Below are positions 4,904-25,745 of a stretch of 40,198 nt of DNA, piece after piece. The stretch comes from Natronolimnohabitans innermongolicus JCM 12255 (lineage in GTDB: Archaea; Halobacteriota; Halobacteria; Halobacteriales; Natrialbaceae), in the NCBI RefSeq assembly GCF_000337215.1, contig NZ_AOHZ01000096.1:25517-65714 (forward strand). Direction: 5' to 3'. The translations under genes and the position numbers were made by a program. How positions within the stretch are numbered: the stretch's first letter is position 1; every line of letters starts with the position of its first letter. The notes below the pieces were generated by a model, which had not been told where the DNA came from, searched no databases, and saw only the letters and a program-made list of their open reading frames with translations.

Positions 4904-4926
4904 TTTCACTGAAAATCTGGTTCGGT
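4904..4926 (+). promoter_or_regulatory. Partial ORB overlapping the orc1/cdc6 promoter
   Basis: The dyad half TTTCACTGAAAA is intact, but the G-rich tail is replaced by TCTGGTTCGGTG. It ends three bases before the TATA box at 4930, so bound Orc1/Cdc6 could interfere with TBP/TFB and autoregulate the gene (inference). Confidence 0.65.
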
Positions 4927-4929
4927 GCG

Positions 4930-4937
4930 TTTATCAT
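4930..4937 (+). promoter_or_regulatory. TATA box of orc1/cdc6
   Basis: TTTATCAT is centred about 28 bp before the ATG at 4961. This spacing implies a leaderless transcript and decides the start codon. The in-frame GTG at 4925 lies upstream of this box and is therefore unlikely. Confidence 0.65.
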
Positions 4938-4960
4938 CCCGGTCTGGAAAGTCACCCGCA

Positions 4961-6244
4961 ATGGGAACTGATCCGATCCCGACGCCCTCGATCGAGGAAC
5001 TCCAGGACGATCCGATGGCGGACGATTCGACTTCCATCTTTCGCCGTCGGGAACTCCTCCGTCCCCAGCACGTGCCACAGAAGGATCGCATCGTCGGGCG
5101 CGACCGCGAAATCGAGACCGTCGAAGCGCTGCTCAAACCGGCGGCGTTCGGCGACCCGCCCGAGAGCGGCTTTCTGTTCGGCAAGACGGGGACCGGGAAG
5201 TCGCTGGTCGCCAAACACGTCACCGGCCGCGCCCGCGGCATCGCACAGATGCAGGGAACCGACCTGACGGCCGCCTACGTCGACTGCGATCAGTACAACA
5301 CGGAGACGCGAGCCGCTCGCAAGATGGCCTTCGAGGTCCGCGACGCGGTCGATCCCGACCGCTACATCCCGAAAGACGGCGTCGGCGCGAGCCGCTACTA
5401 CGACGCGCTGTGGGACGGCGACGGCCTCCTCCACGATTCGGACTCCCTGATCGTTATCCTCGACGAGATCGACAAACTCGGCGACGACACCGCCGAAATT
5501 CTCTCGAAACTCTCTCGCTCCGAAGAGGCCGGCAAGACCGGCTGTTACATCTCCGTCGTCGCGATCAGCAACAAGACCGACTACACGGACGCGCCCGACG
5601 AGCGCGTCGCCTCGAGTTTCCAGGACGATCCGATCATCTTCCCTCCCTACGACGCCAACCAGTTACAGGCCATCCTCGAGCGGCGTCGGGACGCCTTCGA
5701 GGACGACGTCCTCGAGGCGGGCGTGATCGAACTGGCATCCGCACTCGCCGCCCGGGATCACGGCGACGCGCGTCGAGCGCTCGACATCCTGCGCTCGGCC
5801 GGCAAACTCGCCGAGAAAGACGACAGCGAACGGGTGACCGAGGATCACGTTCGGAAAGCCGACGAGTACAGCGACCTCAACCGCTCGATTCAGGTCATCA
5901 AAAACGGGACGCCCCACTCGCGGTACGCCCTCTACGCGCTCGCGTACCTGACCAAATCGAAGCTCACCGACTCGTTCTCGACCGGCGAGGTCTACGACAC
6001 CTACTGCGTCGTCGCCGACGTCGTCGCCGGCGAGTCGTTGACCCACCAGCGCGTGCTGGACCTGATGAAAAAGTGGACGCTCCCGGAGATCACCGAGAGC
6101 CGCCACACCGGCGGCGGTAAGGGGCAGGGCAGCTATCGAACCCACCGACTGCTTCACGATCCCGACGTCGTGATGAGCGCCTGCCTCGAGTCCGCCGACG
6201 ACCAGCGCAACGTGTTGAACGCTCTCTCAGAGTCGTCGATCTGA
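4961..6244 (+). CDS. orc1: Orc1/Cdc6 family replication initiator
   Basis: A 427-residue AAA+ initiator that binds ORBs and helps load the MCM helicase. Seen in order: N-terminal extension; IVGRDREIETV (44-54); Walker A GKTGTGKS (74-81); Walker B VILDEID (165-171); sensor 1 AISNKTDY (about N204); sensor 2 GDARRALDILRSAG (268-281); then a winged-helix DNA-binding domain from about residue 310 (ALAYLTKSKLTDSFSTGEVYD, then the wing GGGKGQGSYRTH). The length is typical. The start is fixed by the TATA box at 4930. The gene is embedded in its own ORBs, upstream and downstream, so this initiator presumably serves this origin. Haloarchaea carry several paralogues, so the numbering (orc1, cdc6A and so on) is uncertain. 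Confidence 0.96.
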   Translation: MGTDPIPTPSIEELQDDPMADDSTSIFRRRELLRPQHVPQKDRIVGRDREIETVEALLKPAAFGDPPESGFLFGKTGTGKSLVAKHVTGRARGIAQMQGTDLTAAYVDCDQYNTETRAARKMAFEVRDAVDPDRYIPKDGVGASRYYDALWDGDGLLHDSDSLIVILDEIDKLGDDTAEILSKLSRSEEAGKTGCYISVVAISNKTDYTDAPDERVASSFQDDPIIFPPYDANQLQAILERRRDAFEDDVLEAGVIELASALAARDHGDARRALDILRSAGKLAEKDDSERVTEDHVRKADEYSDLNRSIQVIKNGTPHSRYALYALAYLTKSKLTDSFSTGEVYDTYCVVADVVAGESLTHQRVLDLMKKWTLPEITESRHTGGGKGQGSYRTHRLLHDPDVVMSACLESADDQRNVLNALSESSI

Positions 6245-6247
6245 ACG

Positions 6248-6261
6248 CCTCACTGAAAGCG
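6248..6261 (+). promoter_or_regulatory. Partial ORB just after the orc1/cdc6 stop
   Basis: CCTCACTGAAAGCG retains the dyad half but has no G-rich tail. It lies three bases beyond the stop codon and 25 bp before the first full downstream ORB. Confidence 0.5.
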
Positions 6262-6272
6262 TCATCCGAACG

Positions 6273-6295
6273 CCTCACTGAAAACGAGGGGTGCG
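6273..6295 (+). promoter_or_regulatory. Downstream ORB a
   Basis: CCTCACTGAAAACGAGGGG plus TGCG. It matches ORB 2 except at the first two bases and one tail base. It is the first of four same-orientation ORBs behind orc1/cdc6. Confidence 0.82.
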
Positions 6296-6328
6296 TTTCG
6301 CGACGATCCGGTCGACGTACTCGCCGCG

Positions 6329-6351
6329 TTTCACTGAAAACGAGGGGTGTC
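6329..6351 (+). promoter_or_regulatory. Downstream ORB b
   Basis: TTTCACTGAAAACGAGGGG plus TGTC, essentially identical to ORB 2. It starts 56 bp after ORB a. Confidence 0.85.
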
Positions 6352-6383
6352 CTGCCACAGGGACGCACGACCGTCTTGCCATT

Positions 6384-6406
6384 TTTCACTGAAAGCGAGG
6401 GGTGTC
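6384..6406 (+). promoter_or_regulatory. Downstream ORB c
   Basis: TTTCACTGAAAGCGAGGGG plus TGTC. One A-to-G change in the core. It starts 55 bp after ORB b. Confidence 0.84.
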
Positions 6407-6438
6407 CTGTGAAGAATCCGCACGGACATTCGACCGGC

Positions 6439-6461
6439 TTTCACTGAAAATGAGGGGTGTG
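6439..6461 (+). promoter_or_regulatory. Downstream ORB d
   Basis: TTTCACTGAAAATGAGGGG plus TGTG. One C-to-T change in the core. It starts 55 bp after ORB c and is the last of the array. Confidence 0.84.
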
Positions 6462-6510
6462 GAACCGCAGGCCGGCGACGCAAACGTCTGTCGTATTCCG
6501 GCTTGCTATC

Positions 6511-6586
6511 GTAGCTCTTGTACGTCACTGCACACCCGATCGAAGGACTGCGTTGGGATCGATGTGTAAATCGGTGCAAGAACTAC
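6511..6586. repeat. Dispersed intergenic palindromic element, copy A
   Basis: The core 6524-6573 contains CACTGCACACCCGATCG and, 25 bases later, an ATCGATGTGT block that pairs with CACACCCGAT when one C is bulged. The outer arms GTAGCTCTTGTAC (6511) and GTGCAAGAACTAC (6574) are complementary at 11 of 13 positions, plus one G-T pair. The whole 76-nt unit can therefore fold as one long hairpin. Copies B (8159-8242) and C (22911-22980) share the core. It lies between the ORB array and a small Cys-rich gene. Confidence 0.78.
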
Positions 6587-6660
6587 TATCGCCGAATCGC
6601 GTAATAATGCGAAACGTAATTCACCCTACGACACTTGACGCTGTAGCCGACAGCGACCGT

Positions 6661-6891
6661 ATGGAGCAGCAGTCTGCCGGGCCGGCACGGCCCTCGACTC
6701 ACGAACGAGCGCGTGAGACGACCTCGTGTTGCGTCTGCGACGCGACGATCGGCCCTCGAGAGCGGCGACTCACGTGGCGGGTTCGCGACGGCGCGGACGT
6801 CTTCGAGTACCACTACTGTAGCGACGCCTGTTTCTCGTTGACGAACCGACCGTCGGGACGCAGAAGCGGGAATCTCGAGTCGACTGGCTGA
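6661..6891 (+). CDS. Small Cys-rich, probably zinc-binding protein
   Basis: A 76-residue protein (MEQQSAGPARP...) with a CCVC pair near residues 25-28 and a CSDAC pair near 51-55. Spacing and context (CCVCDATIGPRERRLTW ... YHYCSDACFSL) suggest one treble-clef or TRASH-like zinc site, familiar from small haloarchaeal proteins of unknown function. The start is uncertain: an in-frame ATG at 6607 would add 18 residues (MRNVIHPTTLDAV). I prefer 6661, because the AT-rich sequence at 6595-6622 looks like a promoter and the added residues are not recognisable. Residues before 6607 would be a translation of palindromic element A and are rejected. Function unknown. Confidence 0.62.
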   Translation: MEQQSAGPARPSTHERARETTSCCVCDATIGPRERRLTWRVRDGADVFEYHYCSDACFSLTNRPSGRRSGNLESTG

Positions 6892-7003
6892 TAGCTTTCG
6901 ACGGTTCGTAACCGAACCGTTCGCGGCAGCGTACGACGATAGACACTCGTCGAATACTGTCAACGGAACTGATATGTGGGCCGCTTCCTTTCTTTCGGTT
7001 GAG

Positions 7004-8149
7004 ATGGCACTCGAGCGACGGAACCTCCTTCGGCTCACCGGCGCAGCTGCGGTCGCATCGACCGCGGGTCTGGCCGGCTGTCTTGGGGGATCGGACGACG
7101 AGAACGGAAGCGGCGACGACCCGACCAGCAGTCAGTCGGCACCGTACCGAAACTGGCTCGCCTCGACCGACGACGACGCGGTGTTCGTCGCGCACCTCGA
7201 CTGGAGCGGCCTCGAGGCCCTCGAGAACGGCGACTCCGAGTCCGTGATCGGCGGCGAGGACGCCGACGATGAGGACCAGGACCTCGACGACGGGGAAACG
7301 CCGTTGGAGGATGAAGAAGACCTGCTGCTGGCCGCACCGCTGATGGGGACGTTTTTCGTCGCGGTCGGGACACTCGGTCTGCTGGGAACGGGCCTCGAGG
7401 AACTGCTCGACAGCGAGGACGACACGGGCGGCGAGGACGACTCCACCGCCGACGATGCGGACGGGGACCCCGCCGACTTCGAGACGACCGTCGACGACGT
7501 GTTCTGGGTCAACGACGCGTACGTGATCACCGGCGACGTCGAGACGGACGAGATCCACGAGATCCTGACCGAGGACCCGGACGACGAGTTCGGCATGAAG
7601 ACCGTCTACGAACCGACCGACGAAATCGGCGGCTTCGACATCTACGAACCCGTCGAGGACGACTCGGCCTTTACGTCGACGGAGGACGCGATCGCCGTCG
7701 GCGAGGACGCAATCGCGCTCTCGATGGGGTCCGAGGGCGAGCCGACCGACGATCTTCGTGGCCCTCTCGAGGCCTACAGCGGCGATGGCGACCGTGCGGT
7801 CGACGAACACGACGATCTGTCGTGGCTTCTCGAGACGGCCGGGTCCGGTCACGTCGCGTTCGGAGCGTTCGGCGATCTCGAGAACGAAGAGGACCTCGAG
7901 ATCGGCGACGACGAGGATCACGACGAACTGGCCGGCGCGACCGGCTTTTTCGGCTCGATGTCGGTCGAGAGCGAATCGGAGTCGTCGCTCGCGTTCGCGG
8001 CCGTCTTCGACGAACTCGACGACGACCAGGAAGCCGAACTCTCGGCGGAACTGGGCACGTCGACTACCGACGCCGACCTCGAGTTCGACGCCGACCGCGT
8101 GAGTGCAACGGCGACCTGGGACGAGAACGCGCTCGCGGGATCCGACTAG
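7004..8149 (+). CDS. Tat-exported acidic lipoprotein, paralogue 1
   Basis: A 381-residue protein. The N-terminus has a twin-arginine motif (ERRNLLRL, R5-R6), a short hydrophobic stretch and a lipobox LAGC with acceptor Cys26, the usual pattern for a haloarchaeal Tat lipoprotein anchored outside the membrane. An Asp/Glu/Ser/Gly-rich spacer follows. The remaining domain is unrecognised, but shares blocks with the next gene: NWLASTDDDAVFVAHLDW, the VITGDVETDEIHEIL block, EPTDEIGGFDIYEP, a DDLSWLLETAG block, and a C-terminal RVSATATW. The ATG at 7004 is preferred over 6974, because it places the RR motif normally. It is probably a substrate-free structural or sensory surface protein, but no function can be assigned. 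Confidence 0.82.
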   Translation: MALERRNLLRLTGAAAVASTAGLAGCLGGSDDENGSGDDPTSSQSAPYRNWLASTDDDAVFVAHLDWSGLEALENGDSESVIGGEDADDEDQDLDDGETPLEDEEDLLLAAPLMGTFFVAVGTLGLLGTGLEELLDSEDDTGGEDDSTADDADGDPADFETTVDDVFWVNDAYVITGDVETDEIHEILTEDPDDEFGMKTVYEPTDEIGGFDIYEPVEDDSAFTSTEDAIAVGEDAIALSMGSEGEPTDDLRGPLEAYSGDGDRAVDEHDDLSWLLETAGSGHVAFGAFGDLENEEDLEIGDDEDHDELAGATGFFGSMSVESESESSLAFAAVFDELDDDQEAELSAELGTSTTDADLEFDADRVSATATWDENALAGSD

Positions 8150-8158
8150 GACGGCGAA

Positions 8159-8242
8159 TATAGTAGTCAGTGAACGCCACTGCACACCCGACCGCAGGAT
8201 GGCGTTGCGATCGGTGTGTACATCGTTTCACTGACTACGATA
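8159..8242. repeat. Dispersed intergenic palindromic element, copy B
   Basis: The core 8176-8225 matches copy A at about 42 of 50 positions (GCCACTGCACACCCGACCG ... GCGATCGGTGTGTACATCG). Its outer arms (8159-8176 and 8224-8242, TAGTCAGTGAA pairing with TTTCACTGACTA) differ from the arms of copy A but are themselves almost fully complementary: 17 pairs, one mismatch, one bulge. It begins 10 bp after the stop of paralogue 1 and ends about 40 bp before the TATA box of paralogue 2, so it may act as a terminator. Confidence 0.8.
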
Positions 8243-8280
8243 GATCGTGCTGAACTCTCGCACGTTACCGAATGCTAACG

Positions 8281-8289
8281 TATTTATTA
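8281..8289 (+). promoter_or_regulatory. TATA box of lipoprotein paralogue 2
   Basis: TATTTATTA is centred 26 bp before the ATG at 8311, implying a leaderless mRNA and selecting that ATG over the upstream in-frame ATG at 8272. The gene therefore has its own promoter after element B. Confidence 0.7.
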
Positions 8290-8310
8290 GTTCACTTTGT
8301 TCACGTCAGC

Positions 8311-9423
8311 ATGAATCTGAATCGGCGGGACGTGTTGCAATTCGGTTCCGCGGCCGCGGCGGCGTCAACGGTCGGACTCTCCGGCTGTCTCAGCGGGGAC
8401 GACGACGGCGCAACCGAAACCGGCGACGAAAACGACGCCGACGGTCTCGACTGGGACGACGGCGACTACCCGTCGTACGGGTCGTGGCTCCCGGCGGCCG
8501 AGGACGCCATGCTGGTGTCCATCGAGTGGGACGCCCTCGAGGACCTCGAGGCGTTCGAGGCGGGCGACCGAGGCGAGTCGAGCCGGAACGGCTCGGAAGA
8601 CGTCGAGAACGCTCTCGTGGCGGCGGACGACGGTCTGCTCTCGCTGCCGACGACCGGGGCGATGTCCGGGCTACAGACGCTGCAACTCGTCGACTACTCC
8701 AGTCGTGGGTTGGGGCGAGTCGTCGACGCCACCGACGCCGACTCCGCTCGAGACGACCTCGCCCGGGACGACCTCGAAACGAGCCTCGATCGACTGCTCG
8801 TCGTCAACGGAACGATCGTCTGTACCGGCGACGTCGAGACGGACGAACTCGAGGCCGAACTCACCACCTCGTCGTTCAGTTACGATCCGGAGTTCGACCC
8901 CACCGACGAAATCGGCGAATTCGCGATCTACGAGCTAGACGAGGCCGGTGTCGGCGCGACCGAGACGTTTGCCGTCAGTCCGGACGCGGTCGTCTATTCG
9001 AGCGGCAGTGATACGTCTCGGAGTGACGTGGTTCGTGTGGTCGAAGCCAAAACGGGCGAGCGCAACCGCTTCGCCGACGAAATCGAGCGCTTCGGCTGGC
9101 TGCTCGAGACGGTCGGCGAGGGAGAGATCGTGTTCGCACAGTACGGCGACGACGAGACGGACGACAGCGCTGAAACGGACGACGAACCCGACGCGGCCGA
9201 CGGATTCGCCAGCGCGCTCACGTTCGACGGCGACGGCGGTGCGAGCGCCGAGGCCGCACTGGTCTTTACCGACGGTGACGGCGGCGAGAGCGATGTCGAC
9301 GAGGACGAGGGGTTCGGTCACTCCGCCGACGACGTCGAATTCGGGGACGAGAACGAGAGTCAGCGCGGAACCGTCTCGGCGACGTGGGACGATCTCGCGG
9401 CCACGCTCGAGACCGGCGACTGA
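8311..9423 (+). CDS. Tat-exported acidic lipoprotein, paralogue 2
   Basis: A 370-residue Tat lipoprotein: NRRDVLQFG (R5-R6), an Ala-rich hydrophobic stretch, and lipobox LSGC with Cys26. An acidic spacer follows, then the domain seen in the preceding gene: SYGSWLPAAEDAMLVSIEWDAL, the CTGDVETDELEAEL block, DPTDEIGEFAIYEL, RFGWLLETVGEGEIVF and C-terminal GTVSATW. Identity to paralogue 1 is moderate and spread along the protein, so this is an old tandem duplication rather than a recent copy. An independent promoter (8281) and the palindrome between the two genes suggest separate regulation. The domain is unrecognised and its function unknown. Confidence 0.83.
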   Translation: MNLNRRDVLQFGSAAAAASTVGLSGCLSGDDDGATETGDENDADGLDWDDGDYPSYGSWLPAAEDAMLVSIEWDALEDLEAFEAGDRGESSRNGSEDVENALVAADDGLLSLPTTGAMSGLQTLQLVDYSSRGLGRVVDATDADSARDDLARDDLETSLDRLLVVNGTIVCTGDVETDELEAELTTSSFSYDPEFDPTDEIGEFAIYELDEAGVGATETFAVSPDAVVYSSGSDTSRSDVVRVVEAKTGERNRFADEIERFGWLLETVGEGEIVFAQYGDDETDDSAETDDEPDAADGFASALTFDGDGGASAEAALVFTDGDGGESDVDEDEGFGHSADDVEFGDENESQRGTVSATWDDLAATLETGD

Positions 9424-21648: not shown

Positions 21649-22788
21649 TCACTCGTCGTCCGGTCGAAAGACGAGGACGTTCTGGTGGACCATCGACGGC
21701 ACGAACGAGAACGGGTAGCCGTAGACGTGCAGATCCTTCGTCGGATCGTACCAGATCAGGTTCGCGGCAAGGGTCACCGGCGCCGCCGACTCGATCGCCC
21801 GCGCGAGGTCGGCCGAGAGGAACTCGTAGGACTGCTCGCGGTACATATCGCCGATGAAGACGACGAGATGGCCGTCCGGCGCGACGGCGTCGGTAAAGCG
21901 ATCGAACTTCGTAGCCATCCCCTCGAGCCAGTCGGCCTTCGACTGCGTTTCCGTCTCGGATTCCGGTTCCGGTTCCGTTTTCGCCGCCGACGGCTCGCCA
22001 CCGTCGGAACCGGCGTCCGAGTCGGCGCCGATTTCGCTCTCGTCTTCTACGTTCCCGACGGGTCCGTTTTCCTCGCCCGCGTCGAACGACCCGAGTTTGC
22101 TCTCCCGCGTGGCCCGTTCGTTGCGCGTCTGCTCGAGTTCGTCCATGTTCCAGTAGGGAACGTCGGTCAGCAGGAGGTCGACCGAGTCGTCGGGCACGTC
22201 TTCGATCAGGTCGGCGCAGTCGCCGTGGCGCATGTCCTGGTCGGCAAGCGGCGGGTCGCCGCGTTCCCGGCGGTCTTCGTTCTCGCGTTTGTGGACGGTC
22301 TCGTAGATCTCGACCCAGCGGCGCGTCCGTTCGAAGCCGATCGCCTCGCGCAGTCCCGTTCCCTCGTGTTCACAGAGGCTCGCCCCGAGCAAGGTGCCGC
22401 CGACGCCCGCGAAGGGGTCGAGGACGGTGTCGCCGGTCTTGCTGAATCGATCGATGAGTTCAGCACAGAGTCGCGGCGGCTTCTGGCCGCCGTGTTCGCT
22501 GCGCAGGTCGTGCTGGAGGGCCGGCGGATACCCCTCCGCAATCACCGACTTCGTGGCGTACTTCCACTCCTTGCCCGTGAGGTCGTTGACGCGATTTCGC
22601 TCATCGTAGATCCCCCGCCCCTCGAGGTAGCGCTGGTGGTCGGCCAGTTCGTCGGTGTCGATCACCTCGCCGTCTTCCACCGGGAGCGATTCCGCCTTCG
22701 CGCGCTCGGCGTCGAACCCGCCATCGTCGTCGGTGAAGAGCCGACTCTGACGGTGTCGGTCACCGCCGCCGTCGCCGTCGTCTGCCAT
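21649..22788 (-). CDS. DNA methyltransferase, Zim-like (probable CTAG m4C)
   Basis: A 379-residue SAM-dependent DNA methyltransferase. The SAM motif is LDPFAGVGGTLLGAS (123-137) and the catalytic motif is DVPYW (209-213). EWKYATKSVI and LRSEHGGQKPP lie before motif I, and IWYDPTKDLHVYGYPFSFVPS near the end. These blocks match my memory of the haloarchaeal Zim proteins, orphan CTAG (m4C) methylases, so specificity is likely but not proved. Residues about 236-283 are a low-complexity Glu/Ser/Gly insert, longer than I expect. No restriction gene is adjacent, consistent with an orphan methylase. The ATG at 22788 is used. Confidence 0.82.
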   Translation of the reverse strand: MADDGDGGGDRHRQSRLFTDDDGGFDAERAKAESLPVEDGEVIDTDELADHQRYLEGRGIYDERNRVNDLTGKEWKYATKSVIAEGYPPALQHDLRSEHGGQKPPRLCAELIDRFSKTGDTVLDPFAGVGGTLLGASLCEHEGTGLREAIGFERTRRWVEIYETVHKRENEDRRERGDPPLADQDMRHGDCADLIEDVPDDSVDLLLTDVPYWNMDELEQTRNERATRESKLGSFDAGEENGPVGNVEDESEIGADSDAGSDGGEPSAAKTEPEPESETETQSKADWLEGMATKFDRFTDAVAPDGHLVVFIGDMYREQSYEFLSADLARAIESAAPVTLAANLIWYDPTKDLHVYGYPFSFVPSMVHQNVLVFRPDDE

Positions 22789-22910
22789 ACCCTCGAGTGG
22801 TTTCCCCGGTGGTATAAAGGGTCACCTCTCGTTCGGTTTCGAAGCGGCGTATCGAACGCAGCGGTTCGGCGTCTCACTTCGGTCGAGACCGACGCCGTAC
22901 TTTCGTCGTC

Positions 22911-22980
22911 CCCGAAACGAGTTGTACACCGATCGTAACGCAGTCCGGCGATCGGGTGTGCAGTGACGCTCAGTCGCTCC
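22911..22980. repeat. Dispersed intergenic palindromic element, copy C
   Basis: Read on the minus strand, the core (22967 to 22918) is GTCACTGCACACCCGATCG, then CCGGACTGCGTTACG, then ATCGGTGTACAACTCG, matching copy A at about 42 of 50 positions. The inner stem (CACCCGATCG with CGATCGGTG) is kept. The flanking arms are not obviously paired here. It lies immediately downstream of the RND gene stop (22982) and upstream of the methyltransferase gene. Confidence 0.72.
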
Positions 22981-22981
22981 G

Positions 22982-25552
22982 TTACTGTCTACCGGTGAGG
23001 AATCGTTCACGGGCCACCAACAGACACGGTAGCACGACTAGGCAGGCGACGAACGCGAACACGATACTCAATCCAGTTACGATGCCGAACCGCTGAAGCG
23101 GCGGCGAGAGCGCAAGTGCGAGTACGCCGAATCCCCCGGCCGTCGTCGCTGCACTCCCCAGTAGTGCACCGCCCGTTCCGACGATGGCCGCCGACAGCGT
23201 CTCGTCGATTGAGGAGTGTTGCCGCCGTTCAGCAATGAACCGCTCGCTCATGTGGATGCTGTAATCGACGCCCAGCCCGATCGCGAGACTCGTCATGACG
23301 ACCGTTTCGGTGTTAAACGGCACGTCGAGGAGCGCCATCGCTCCGAGCAACCAGGCCAACGCTGCAACGACGGGTGCGAGCGTAACCACGCCGAGTGAGA
23401 TCGCTCTGTGACGCACCCAGTACAGAATCGTGAGAAAGGCCAAGATGACGATGACGGTCACCGTAAACGCCGGGACGAGCGTTTCGAGGAGCGCGTCTTG
23501 GATTACTGCGGTTGTCACTTGTCCGCCAGTTGCGACAGCGGTTACGGGAGCGCCGTCTGCAATTTCCCCACCAAAACGACTCATATCGGTCGCAATATCT
23601 TGGGCCGGTGCATCACTTCGGACGGAGACGATCACTCGAGCAGATTCGTACTCCCCGGTCTCCGTTCGAGACAGCACGGATGCTGCTTGCTCGGGGTCGA
23701 CGTCGTAGACGACATCGTAGAGGCCGGCGACGTCGCGGTTCGGAAGGTTGTTTCCGTTCGTGTCACGGTCTGCTAGCGCAGCGGCTACCGTCTCGTTCTC
23801 AGCTGCGAGCGTTCGAAGAACCGTGTGTGGCCCATCAGTTACGGCGGTTCCATCCGCGCTCACGTCGATCGTACTGTCGGTGCTACTGTTCCGTGACGCT
23901 CGTTCGAGCGCGACGAGTGTCGCTGGATCGGTTACGTTCCCTTCTAGTAATAGCTGCGCCTGTGAGTCGGGACCGCGCTCCTGGAAGTGTTCTCCCAAGT
24001 ATGCGACGTCGTCGGAGACCGTGTACGTATCGGGAGCGAGCGGACCCGGGAGGGACTTCGTCCAGTCGGGTGCGTCTGCAGGGAGGAAATCGGTTTGATT
24101 GAATTCGGTATCGAGGCCAGTCGCGCCGTACGCTCCGCCAGCGGCGAGGACGAACGCGACCAGAATAACGGCTACCGGTGCTCTCCGCACGAGCCGAACC
24201 ACGTTCGAGAGCGCGCGGTTCACGATTCCAGTTCCGATCCCGAAGGGAGCTTTCGCCCGATTACGGTCGAAACGGTGTTCGAGGAACCCGTCGACCTCGA
24301 CCTTGAGAGCCGGCACGAAGACGCCGAACGCGACGAAGGTCGCAAGAATCCCCCCTGCGCTCAGTAGCGCGAAGTTCTGGATCGTGGGTAACGGACTAAG
24401 CGCGTTCGAGAGAAACCCGACACCCGTCGACACCGTCGCAGCTGCGAGTGCGAGGACGACGCCAGCGAGTCCGACGGCCATTCCCGCTCGAGGCGACCGC
24501 CGGCTTTCGTCGGGACTCTCTCCGTCTCGGTCAGTTACTGCGCCGCTTCTCGCCTCTCGGTATCTCATCACGACGTGGAGCGAATAGTCGATCGAGAGGC
24601 CGATCAGGAGGAACGGAACGGCGAGTAGCATCGAGTCCATCGGGATCTCTAGCCAGCCCTGGATGCCGGAGACCCAGGCCATCACCACGCCGATTCCGAG
24701 CAGCCCGATCAAAATATCGACGAGATCACGGTACGTCACCGCGAGCACGGACAGAACGAGGACGAGTGCGACAGGGGTGATAATCGCGAAACTATCGCCG
24801 ATGGCGCTTGCACTCGCTGCATCGGTGATCCCCTCTCCGAAAACGAAGCCGTCGTCGAAGCGCTCCTCGAACAGCGACTCGATTTCGAGTTGGGCATCAG
24901 ACACTCCCGACGCGTCGTCGCCGGCTCGGTCTTCGGCGGTGTGGACGACGAACGTGATCCGGGACTCCGCTTCGGCCGACCCCGGTTCGTACGTTGCGGG
25001 AAGGTACGAAACCGGATCGACGCCGGCGGACTCCCTCTCCGGATCGAGCACCCCCTCCACTAATTCGGTAACGGCTGCTTCTGATCGAGACTCGAGGGCA
25101 TCGATTTGTTCGTCGATCGTCGGCGAACTGGTGTCGTGTTCTCCAGCAGTTTCTGCAGCCCGGTCCTCGAACACCGCACTCGTTCCGACACTGTTCTCGA
25201 TCCCGACAGCACCATCTTCGGAAAGGGTTGCGGTTATCGACTCGTTCTCGTACATTTCCTGTTGGAGTCGTAAGCTCTCGAGTAACGAATCGCGGGTGAG
25301 GACGTCACCGTTCTCCGACCGGACGACGATCTGTGTGATGACTTCCTCGTCCGTAGCGTACTGTTCGTCGATCGTCTCTAGGGCTTCCGTCTCCGGCGAA
25401 TCCACGTCGAACTGCTCGCCGTCGTCCTCCGCCGGATCACCAACCACCGCTCCAGCCGCGATTACGGCTGTGAGTGCGAGGACGAGGACGACCACCAGTT
25501 TGCTCCGGGAGACGACCGCGTTCGCGTACCGAGTCGAAATGCGTTCGCTCAT
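22982..25552 (-). CDS. RND superfamily exporter (MMPL-type)
   Basis: An 856-residue protein with two similar halves, each with one helix, a large exposed loop and then about five clustered helices. Helix 1 is SKLVVVLVLALTAVIAAGAVVG. The first loop is DSPETEALETIDEQYATDE onward; the first transmembrane cluster includes LIGLSIDYSLHVVMRY. The second half repeats this (VILVAFVLAAGGAYGATG) with SLAIGLGVDYSIHMSERF. The conserved GxxxDYxxHxxxR/xRF signature occurs in both. It probably exports lipids, fatty-acid derivatives or drugs using an ion gradient. The ATG at 25550-25552 gives MSERISTRYANAVV. It sits downstream of the HTH/DUF7521 pair, across a 193-bp gap, and its composition is less GC-rich, with frequent CTAG. 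Confidence 0.88.
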   Translation of the reverse strand: MSERISTRYANAVVSRSKLVVVLVLALTAVIAAGAVVGDPAEDDGEQFDVDSPETEALETIDEQYATDEEVITQIVVRSENGDVLTRDSLLESLRLQQEMYENESITATLSEDGAVGIENSVGTSAVFEDRAAETAGEHDTSSPTIDEQIDALESRSEAAVTELVEGVLDPERESAGVDPVSYLPATYEPGSAEAESRITFVVHTAEDRAGDDASGVSDAQLEIESLFEERFDDGFVFGEGITDAASASAIGDSFAIITPVALVLVLSVLAVTYRDLVDILIGLLGIGVVMAWVSGIQGWLEIPMDSMLLAVPFLLIGLSIDYSLHVVMRYREARSGAVTDRDGESPDESRRSPRAGMAVGLAGVVLALAAATVSTGVGFLSNALSPLPTIQNFALLSAGGILATFVAFGVFVPALKVEVDGFLEHRFDRNRAKAPFGIGTGIVNRALSNVVRLVRRAPVAVILVAFVLAAGGAYGATGLDTEFNQTDFLPADAPDWTKSLPGPLAPDTYTVSDDVAYLGEHFQERGPDSQAQLLLEGNVTDPATLVALERASRNSSTDSTIDVSADGTAVTDGPHTVLRTLAAENETVAAALADRDTNGNNLPNRDVAGLYDVVYDVDPEQAASVLSRTETGEYESARVIVSVRSDAPAQDIATDMSRFGGEIADGAPVTAVATGGQVTTAVIQDALLETLVPAFTVTVIVILAFLTILYWVRHRAISLGVVTLAPVVAALAWLLGAMALLDVPFNTETVVMTSLAIGLGVDYSIHMSERFIAERRQHSSIDETLSAAIVGTGGALLGSAATTAGGFGVLALALSPPLQRFGIVTGLSIVFAFVACLVVLPCLLVARERFLTGRQ

Positions 25553-25745
25553 CGTACCGCTTTGCCCTCCCGTGTCGCGTTCGGTTTTGCAGACGATACT
25601 GACCGAGCAGCCATCACTGCAGGTGTGTCCATTACCGAACGCTCGGGACGACAGTGATAAGGAACGATGGAGGCGTCCCACACTCTGGGACAGCCGTTTT
25701 CGGCGTCAGCGCTTTCGGCCTCGAGTCGAGCGCAAAACCGCCGGA

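Follow-up and report, generated by a model that had tools for sequence, protein, structure and literature searches.

A dispersed 86-bp palindromic repeat of Halobacteriales is very probably a MITE of the IS630/Tc1-mariner type

Among the described repeats closest to the family here reported, Correia elements and RUP are short palindromic intergenic MITEs of bacteria, linked to IS630-type, TA-duplicating transposition, that differ from it in sequence, length and host domain. REP/BIME repeats with RAYT transposases are likewise high-copy intergenic palindromes, but their transposition chemistry is different and TA is not duplicated, while IS605-type elements have neither terminal inverted repeats nor a TA target duplication. 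The nearest published category, by description only, is that of the SMR of Haloquadratum walsbyi, transposase-less repeats of 80-110 bp with prominent inverted ends and many copies, whose mobilisation has been termed 'enigmatic' (PMC3119063). Unlike the present family, SMR are reported to show no target duplication and to have ends bearing no relation to known transposons, and those of type A prefer PATEs/IS605 elements (PMC3119063). Regarding IS630, a passage of PMC2170065 citing Tenzen and Ohtsubo 1991 states that it inserts at TA, preferably within CTAG, and that the TA is duplicated. A MITE of an IS630-type element is a kind already known; no description of the 86-bp family was found in the open-access literature, and the repeat is unannotated in most of the public records inspected.

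The window analysed, a stretch of 40,198 nucleotides from Natronolimnohabitans innermongolicus JCM 12255, contains only three matches to covariance model R1 (Table 1), and three exact matches to the 17-nt start motif versus 0.28 expected at up to three mismatches. A first-pass annotation had reported copies A, B and C; all of them exist, as units slightly longer than it had delimited, and its figure of about 42/50 identity in the core agrees with the measured values (A/B 42, A/C 42, B/C 40). The outer arms of A and B, described there as different yet complementary, form 14/18 and 15/18 Watson-Crick pairs, respectively, and those of C 7/18. Copy A carries arms of the GTAGCTCTTG subfamily, while copy B is the best preserved in the window and the only one whose single-stranded DNA fold goes clearly beyond shuffles (z -5.3, versus -1.6 for A and +0.8 for C).

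Table 1. Coordinates of the repeat copies in the window.
Feature	Position	Strand	Description	Support
Copy A	6506-6591	+	full unit including TA duplications, CTATCGTAG...CTACTATCG	cmsearch R1, 84.7 bits
Copy B	8158-8243	+	full unit, ATATAGTAGTCAGTGAA...TTTCACTGACTACGATAG	cmsearch R1, 95.5 bits
Copy C	22900-22985	-	decayed, core intact	cmsearch R1, 65.2 bits
Conserved 5' inner box start, copy A	6526-6542	+	CACTGCACACCCGATCG	pattern match

The 86-bp unit reads CTATAGTAG-nnnn-TGAAAGTCAnTGCACACC-yGATCGC-loop-GCGATCr-GTGTGTAAATCG-TTTCA-nnnn-CTACTATAG, with terminal inverted repeats of 18 bp. It displays two stems, of 18 and 11 pairs, separated by 8-nt stretches that are unlike on the two sides, and its nnnn columns occur in many matched forms (CCAC/GTGG, TCAG/CTGA, CAAC/GTTG, CTCT/AGAG and CCGC/GCGG). 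In variants of ~121 and ~155 bp the interior is replaced while the terminal boxes persist. A 118-bp MITE family in the same-genus genome G392 (L119, L122-L129) has a closely similar inner core and the arms TACTACCGGACAAAA/TTTTGTCCGGTAGTA, its outer arms being exchanged relative to those of the 86-bp family. A pseudoknot of CAnTGC with the loop was discarded, the loop partner not tracking changes in CAnTGC in the copies inspected.

The repeat family proposed from these three copies extends well beyond the window. The 17-nt start motif has 77 matches with up to two mismatches in the whole genome, versus 0 for the reversed control, and R1 gives 147 matches over 4.59 Mb; since in many cases a single palindrome is matched on both strands, ~100 distinct loci are left. 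R1 was positive in 154 of the 392 Halobacteriales genomes sampled, covering 41 of 96 genera, and all 11 genomes with a match in a phylum sample of 197 were Halobacteriales. Among named replicons, plasmids of Natrinema, Haloterrigena turkmenica, Natronorubrum, Natrialba magadii, Haloarcula hispanica and Halomicrobium mukohataei bear the repeat; no copy occurred in the phage records searched. Near-identical subfamilies specific to single genomes, such as those with CAAC arms in G258 or with CCGC and CTCT arms in G252, constitute bursts. Identical pairs ~90 bp apart with a single N between them were observed on contigs C15, C50 and C84 of G000 (L018, L028, L035, L039), possibly scaffolding artefacts at contig ends and not real tandem copies; paired copies 85-90 bp apart also appear in G226 and G047.

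Sites without the repeat were sought by comparing the joined flanks of occupied loci with 29 genomes of one genus. The best comparisons are empty L190 against occupied L133, which reads GCCGA-CTAG-CTGCTCG, and empty L159 against occupied L138, which shows CTAG; CTAG is also found for the L133/L158 pair, and CTCTAG for L147/L189. Comparisons of L164, L166 and L189 with L147, and of L187 with L157, agree if a single substitution is allowed within the target or next to it. Against these allelic empty sites, occupied loci read C-TA-[unit]-TA-G, which shows insertion at the TA of CTAG with duplication of that TA. Several of them are blurred, the relatives used being 76-87% identical; orthologous sites in G392 were too divergent, yielding one blurred empty site, and the 20 kb shared by Haloarcula hispanica pHH400 and Haloarcula sp. 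CBA1115 carry the same copies and were uninformative for polymorphism. In these genomes CTAG itself is infrequent, with an observed/expected ratio of 0.14.

Searches with DDE_3 led to a haloarchaeal IS630 group of 1,059 bp (e.g. in Natrinema, Halosimplex, Haloferax, Halorubrum, Halobacterium). Its two reading frames overlap, and each of them scores above the cut-off of NCBIfam transpos_IS630. From 80 IS loci in named haloarchaea, 70 measurable end pairs were obtained. The tips read TATAGTA, with a flanking C in 56/68 elements and a flanking G in 56/68, that is, a CTAG target with TA flanks as in the MITE, and the tip TATAGTAG is common to both. The MITE 5' end resembles the IS right end, with the box ATTGCnCAC in register (column-shuffle p 0.0002), and its 3' end the IS left end, with TTTACnCA or a similar box, also in register (p 0.002); the matches total 38.5 bits, versus 23.3 for the crossed assignment. 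In this comparison, CACTGCACACCCGATCG of copy A has ATTGCTCAC as its counterpart at the IS right end. The side-specific, unpaired 8-nt stretches are thereby explained, since they would be putative end-specific transposase boxes. On the contrary, columns 13-20 are unlike, TTAGAA follows the spacer in the IS group versus TGAAA in the MITE, and the IS encodes a transposase and lacks the inner palindrome. Considering that the repeats are (i) too short at 86 bp to encode a transposase, (ii) multicopy and dispersed, (iii) inserted at CTAG with TA duplication, (iv) bounded by IS630-like ends in register, and (v) found between genes and in genome-specific bursts, we regard them as very probably a non-autonomous transposon (MITE) of the IS630/Tc1-mariner type, in line with the candidate that the first-pass annotation had listed first.

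The same observations bear on another of its candidates, a REP-like element, considered here together with PATE-like ones as cargo of a single-strand transposase (IS200/IS605, Y1). Such an element would also be short, palindromic, intergenic and present in ~100 copies, and PATEs are common in Haloquadratum (PMC3119063), but 18-bp terminal inverted repeats and a TA duplication at CTAG contradict this reading and the ends match IS630 in register, making it extremely improbable.

For the MITE so understood, we infer that the mover is the 1,059-bp IS630 group or a close sister, acting in trans. Across the 392 genomes, 68 carry both MITE and IS, 86 the MITE only, 57 the IS only and 181 neither, an association (odds ratio 2.5, p 2e-5, ignoring phylogeny) that is weaker inside subgroups and has p 0.10 outside the family. 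The only IS630 remnant in the source genome is a decayed ORFA relic, ~75% identical, and IS630 transposase is absent from G252, G024 and G047, all rich in near-identical copies. An exact-partner search with a 5'-end pattern excluding the MITE interior recovered nothing beyond variants of the MITE, 84, 121-122 and 155 bp long, and no IS630-group relative occurred in the viral contigs searched. Since no autonomous element with the TGAAAG end variant of the MITE appeared among IS630-group loci or end-pattern matches, the element that truly moves the MITE may be a sister outside the sample. Loci of other IS630 subgroups (235+160 aa, 361-383 aa and 376 aa) were rejected as lacking TATAGTAG ends. 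Separately, a different IS630-type element with unrelated ends (376-383 aa, ~1,164 bp) is present nine times in G154 (L213-L221), eight of the copies being near-identical, which marks a recent burst.

Covariation of the arms was evaluated on 70 copies. Pairing is present in 96% of cells, and changes on both sides occur in 16/29 pairs, in 124 cells versus 26 in shuffles and 11-24 with partners slid. Conserved pairing, as initially claimed, thus stands as such, but it looks to be maintained at the DNA level. Selection on RNA would accept G.U and not A.C, while both count as mismatches in DNA, and among 2,030 cells G.U (29) is no commoner than A.C (24), a count that is supportive and short of final, the alignment having been fitted to the model. 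This is relevant for the structured RNA or terminator that had also been proposed, here taken to include a 3'-UTR hairpin, in which selection for the RNA fold would keep the arms complementary. Strong two-sided covariation and the closeness of gene ends (within 100 nt of copies, 57/96 flanking 3' ends versus 29/70 flanking 5' ends) would suit it. Nevertheless, besides the G.U count, (i) there is no strand bias regarding neighbouring genes (same/opposite 17/22 and 15/22), (ii) an Rfam search gave 0 matches at the gathering threshold, (iii) close relatives have empty sites, and (iv) the conserved sequence is that of transposon ends rather than the loop. An RNA function of this type therefore loses support and is judged highly improbable.

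Within a DNA-level MITE, the simplest account of arm co-variation would be a template switch through which one arm is copied from its partner, with selection for the hairpin as alternative. Spacers are often unmatched at IS630-group ends and matched in the MITE, whose arms are merely tens of bases apart. It is possible, if doubtful, that spacer and inner stem, seemingly unread by the transposase, become palindromic anew as DNA in every subfamily, either through template switching or through a single strand that folds back in the course of transposition or repair.

Location between genes, another feature of the original description, is borne out by 0/85 copies inside predicted ORFs, versus 58% of random positions within the same flanks, ORFs being predicted by a simple composition-based script. 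Convergent sites exceed divergent ones modestly and non-significantly (28 vs 15, p 0.07). Together with proximity to 3' ends, this excess would fit a partly domesticated MITE whose hairpins at gene 3' ends stabilise or terminate mRNA, or are cut in it, as in Correia elements, for which RNase III cleavage at the ends is published (PMC10969869). An orientation preference is absent, though, copies decay as copy C did, and intergenic position is expected anyway because selection against gene disruption suffices; domestication is consequently considered rather unlikely.

The surroundings of the window copies were also inspected. An orc1/cdc6 gene (4925-6244, TIGR02928) is followed by TTTCACTGAAAACGAGGGGTGT repeats at ~6240-6464 that resemble origin recognition boxes, so that 4925-6464 is probably a replication origin; copy A lies ~40 bp past the last of these repeats. 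Two adjacent acidic proteins (6974-8149 and 8272-9423, +), with Pfam matches absent or below threshold, are probably secreted or lipoprotein-like, and the gene between copies A and B, used as genome query, had no relatives. Copy C adjoins an N6_N4_Mtase-domain protein (21649-22788, -), and its tip contains the stop codon of the adjoining MMPL-type gene (22982-25681, -). CTAG, the target of the 86-bp MITE, is also that of a methylase which a passage of PMC8281068 describes as widespread in haloarchaea.

Regarding mechanism, the mobile unit would be the ~82 bp TAGTAG...CTACTA. A full-length IS630-group element would supply the transposase, which would bind both ends and excise the unit, and this would then enter the TA of a CTAG, with the TA duplicated to leave the arrangement seen at occupied loci. 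Spacer and inner stem would be free in sequence, template switching at replication being the likeliest means by which they stay palindromic as DNA. After intergenic insertion most copies would be tolerated and then decay, some of them coming to provide the stop codon of an adjoining gene.

If the proposed re-making of palindromes is true, the DNA hairpin would be an active part of the MITE life cycle, and new symmetrical subfamilies would arise in single steps. In general, a palindromic repeat can covary strongly at the DNA level, so that such covariation is no proof of a structured RNA, and counting G.U against A.C helps in telling both levels apart. A repeat present in ~40% of the sampled Halobacteriales, with ~100 copies in some, now has defined limits, a target and a probable mover, and its IS630-type reading offers a testable route towards an explanation of the SMR of Haloquadratum, termed 'enigmatic'.
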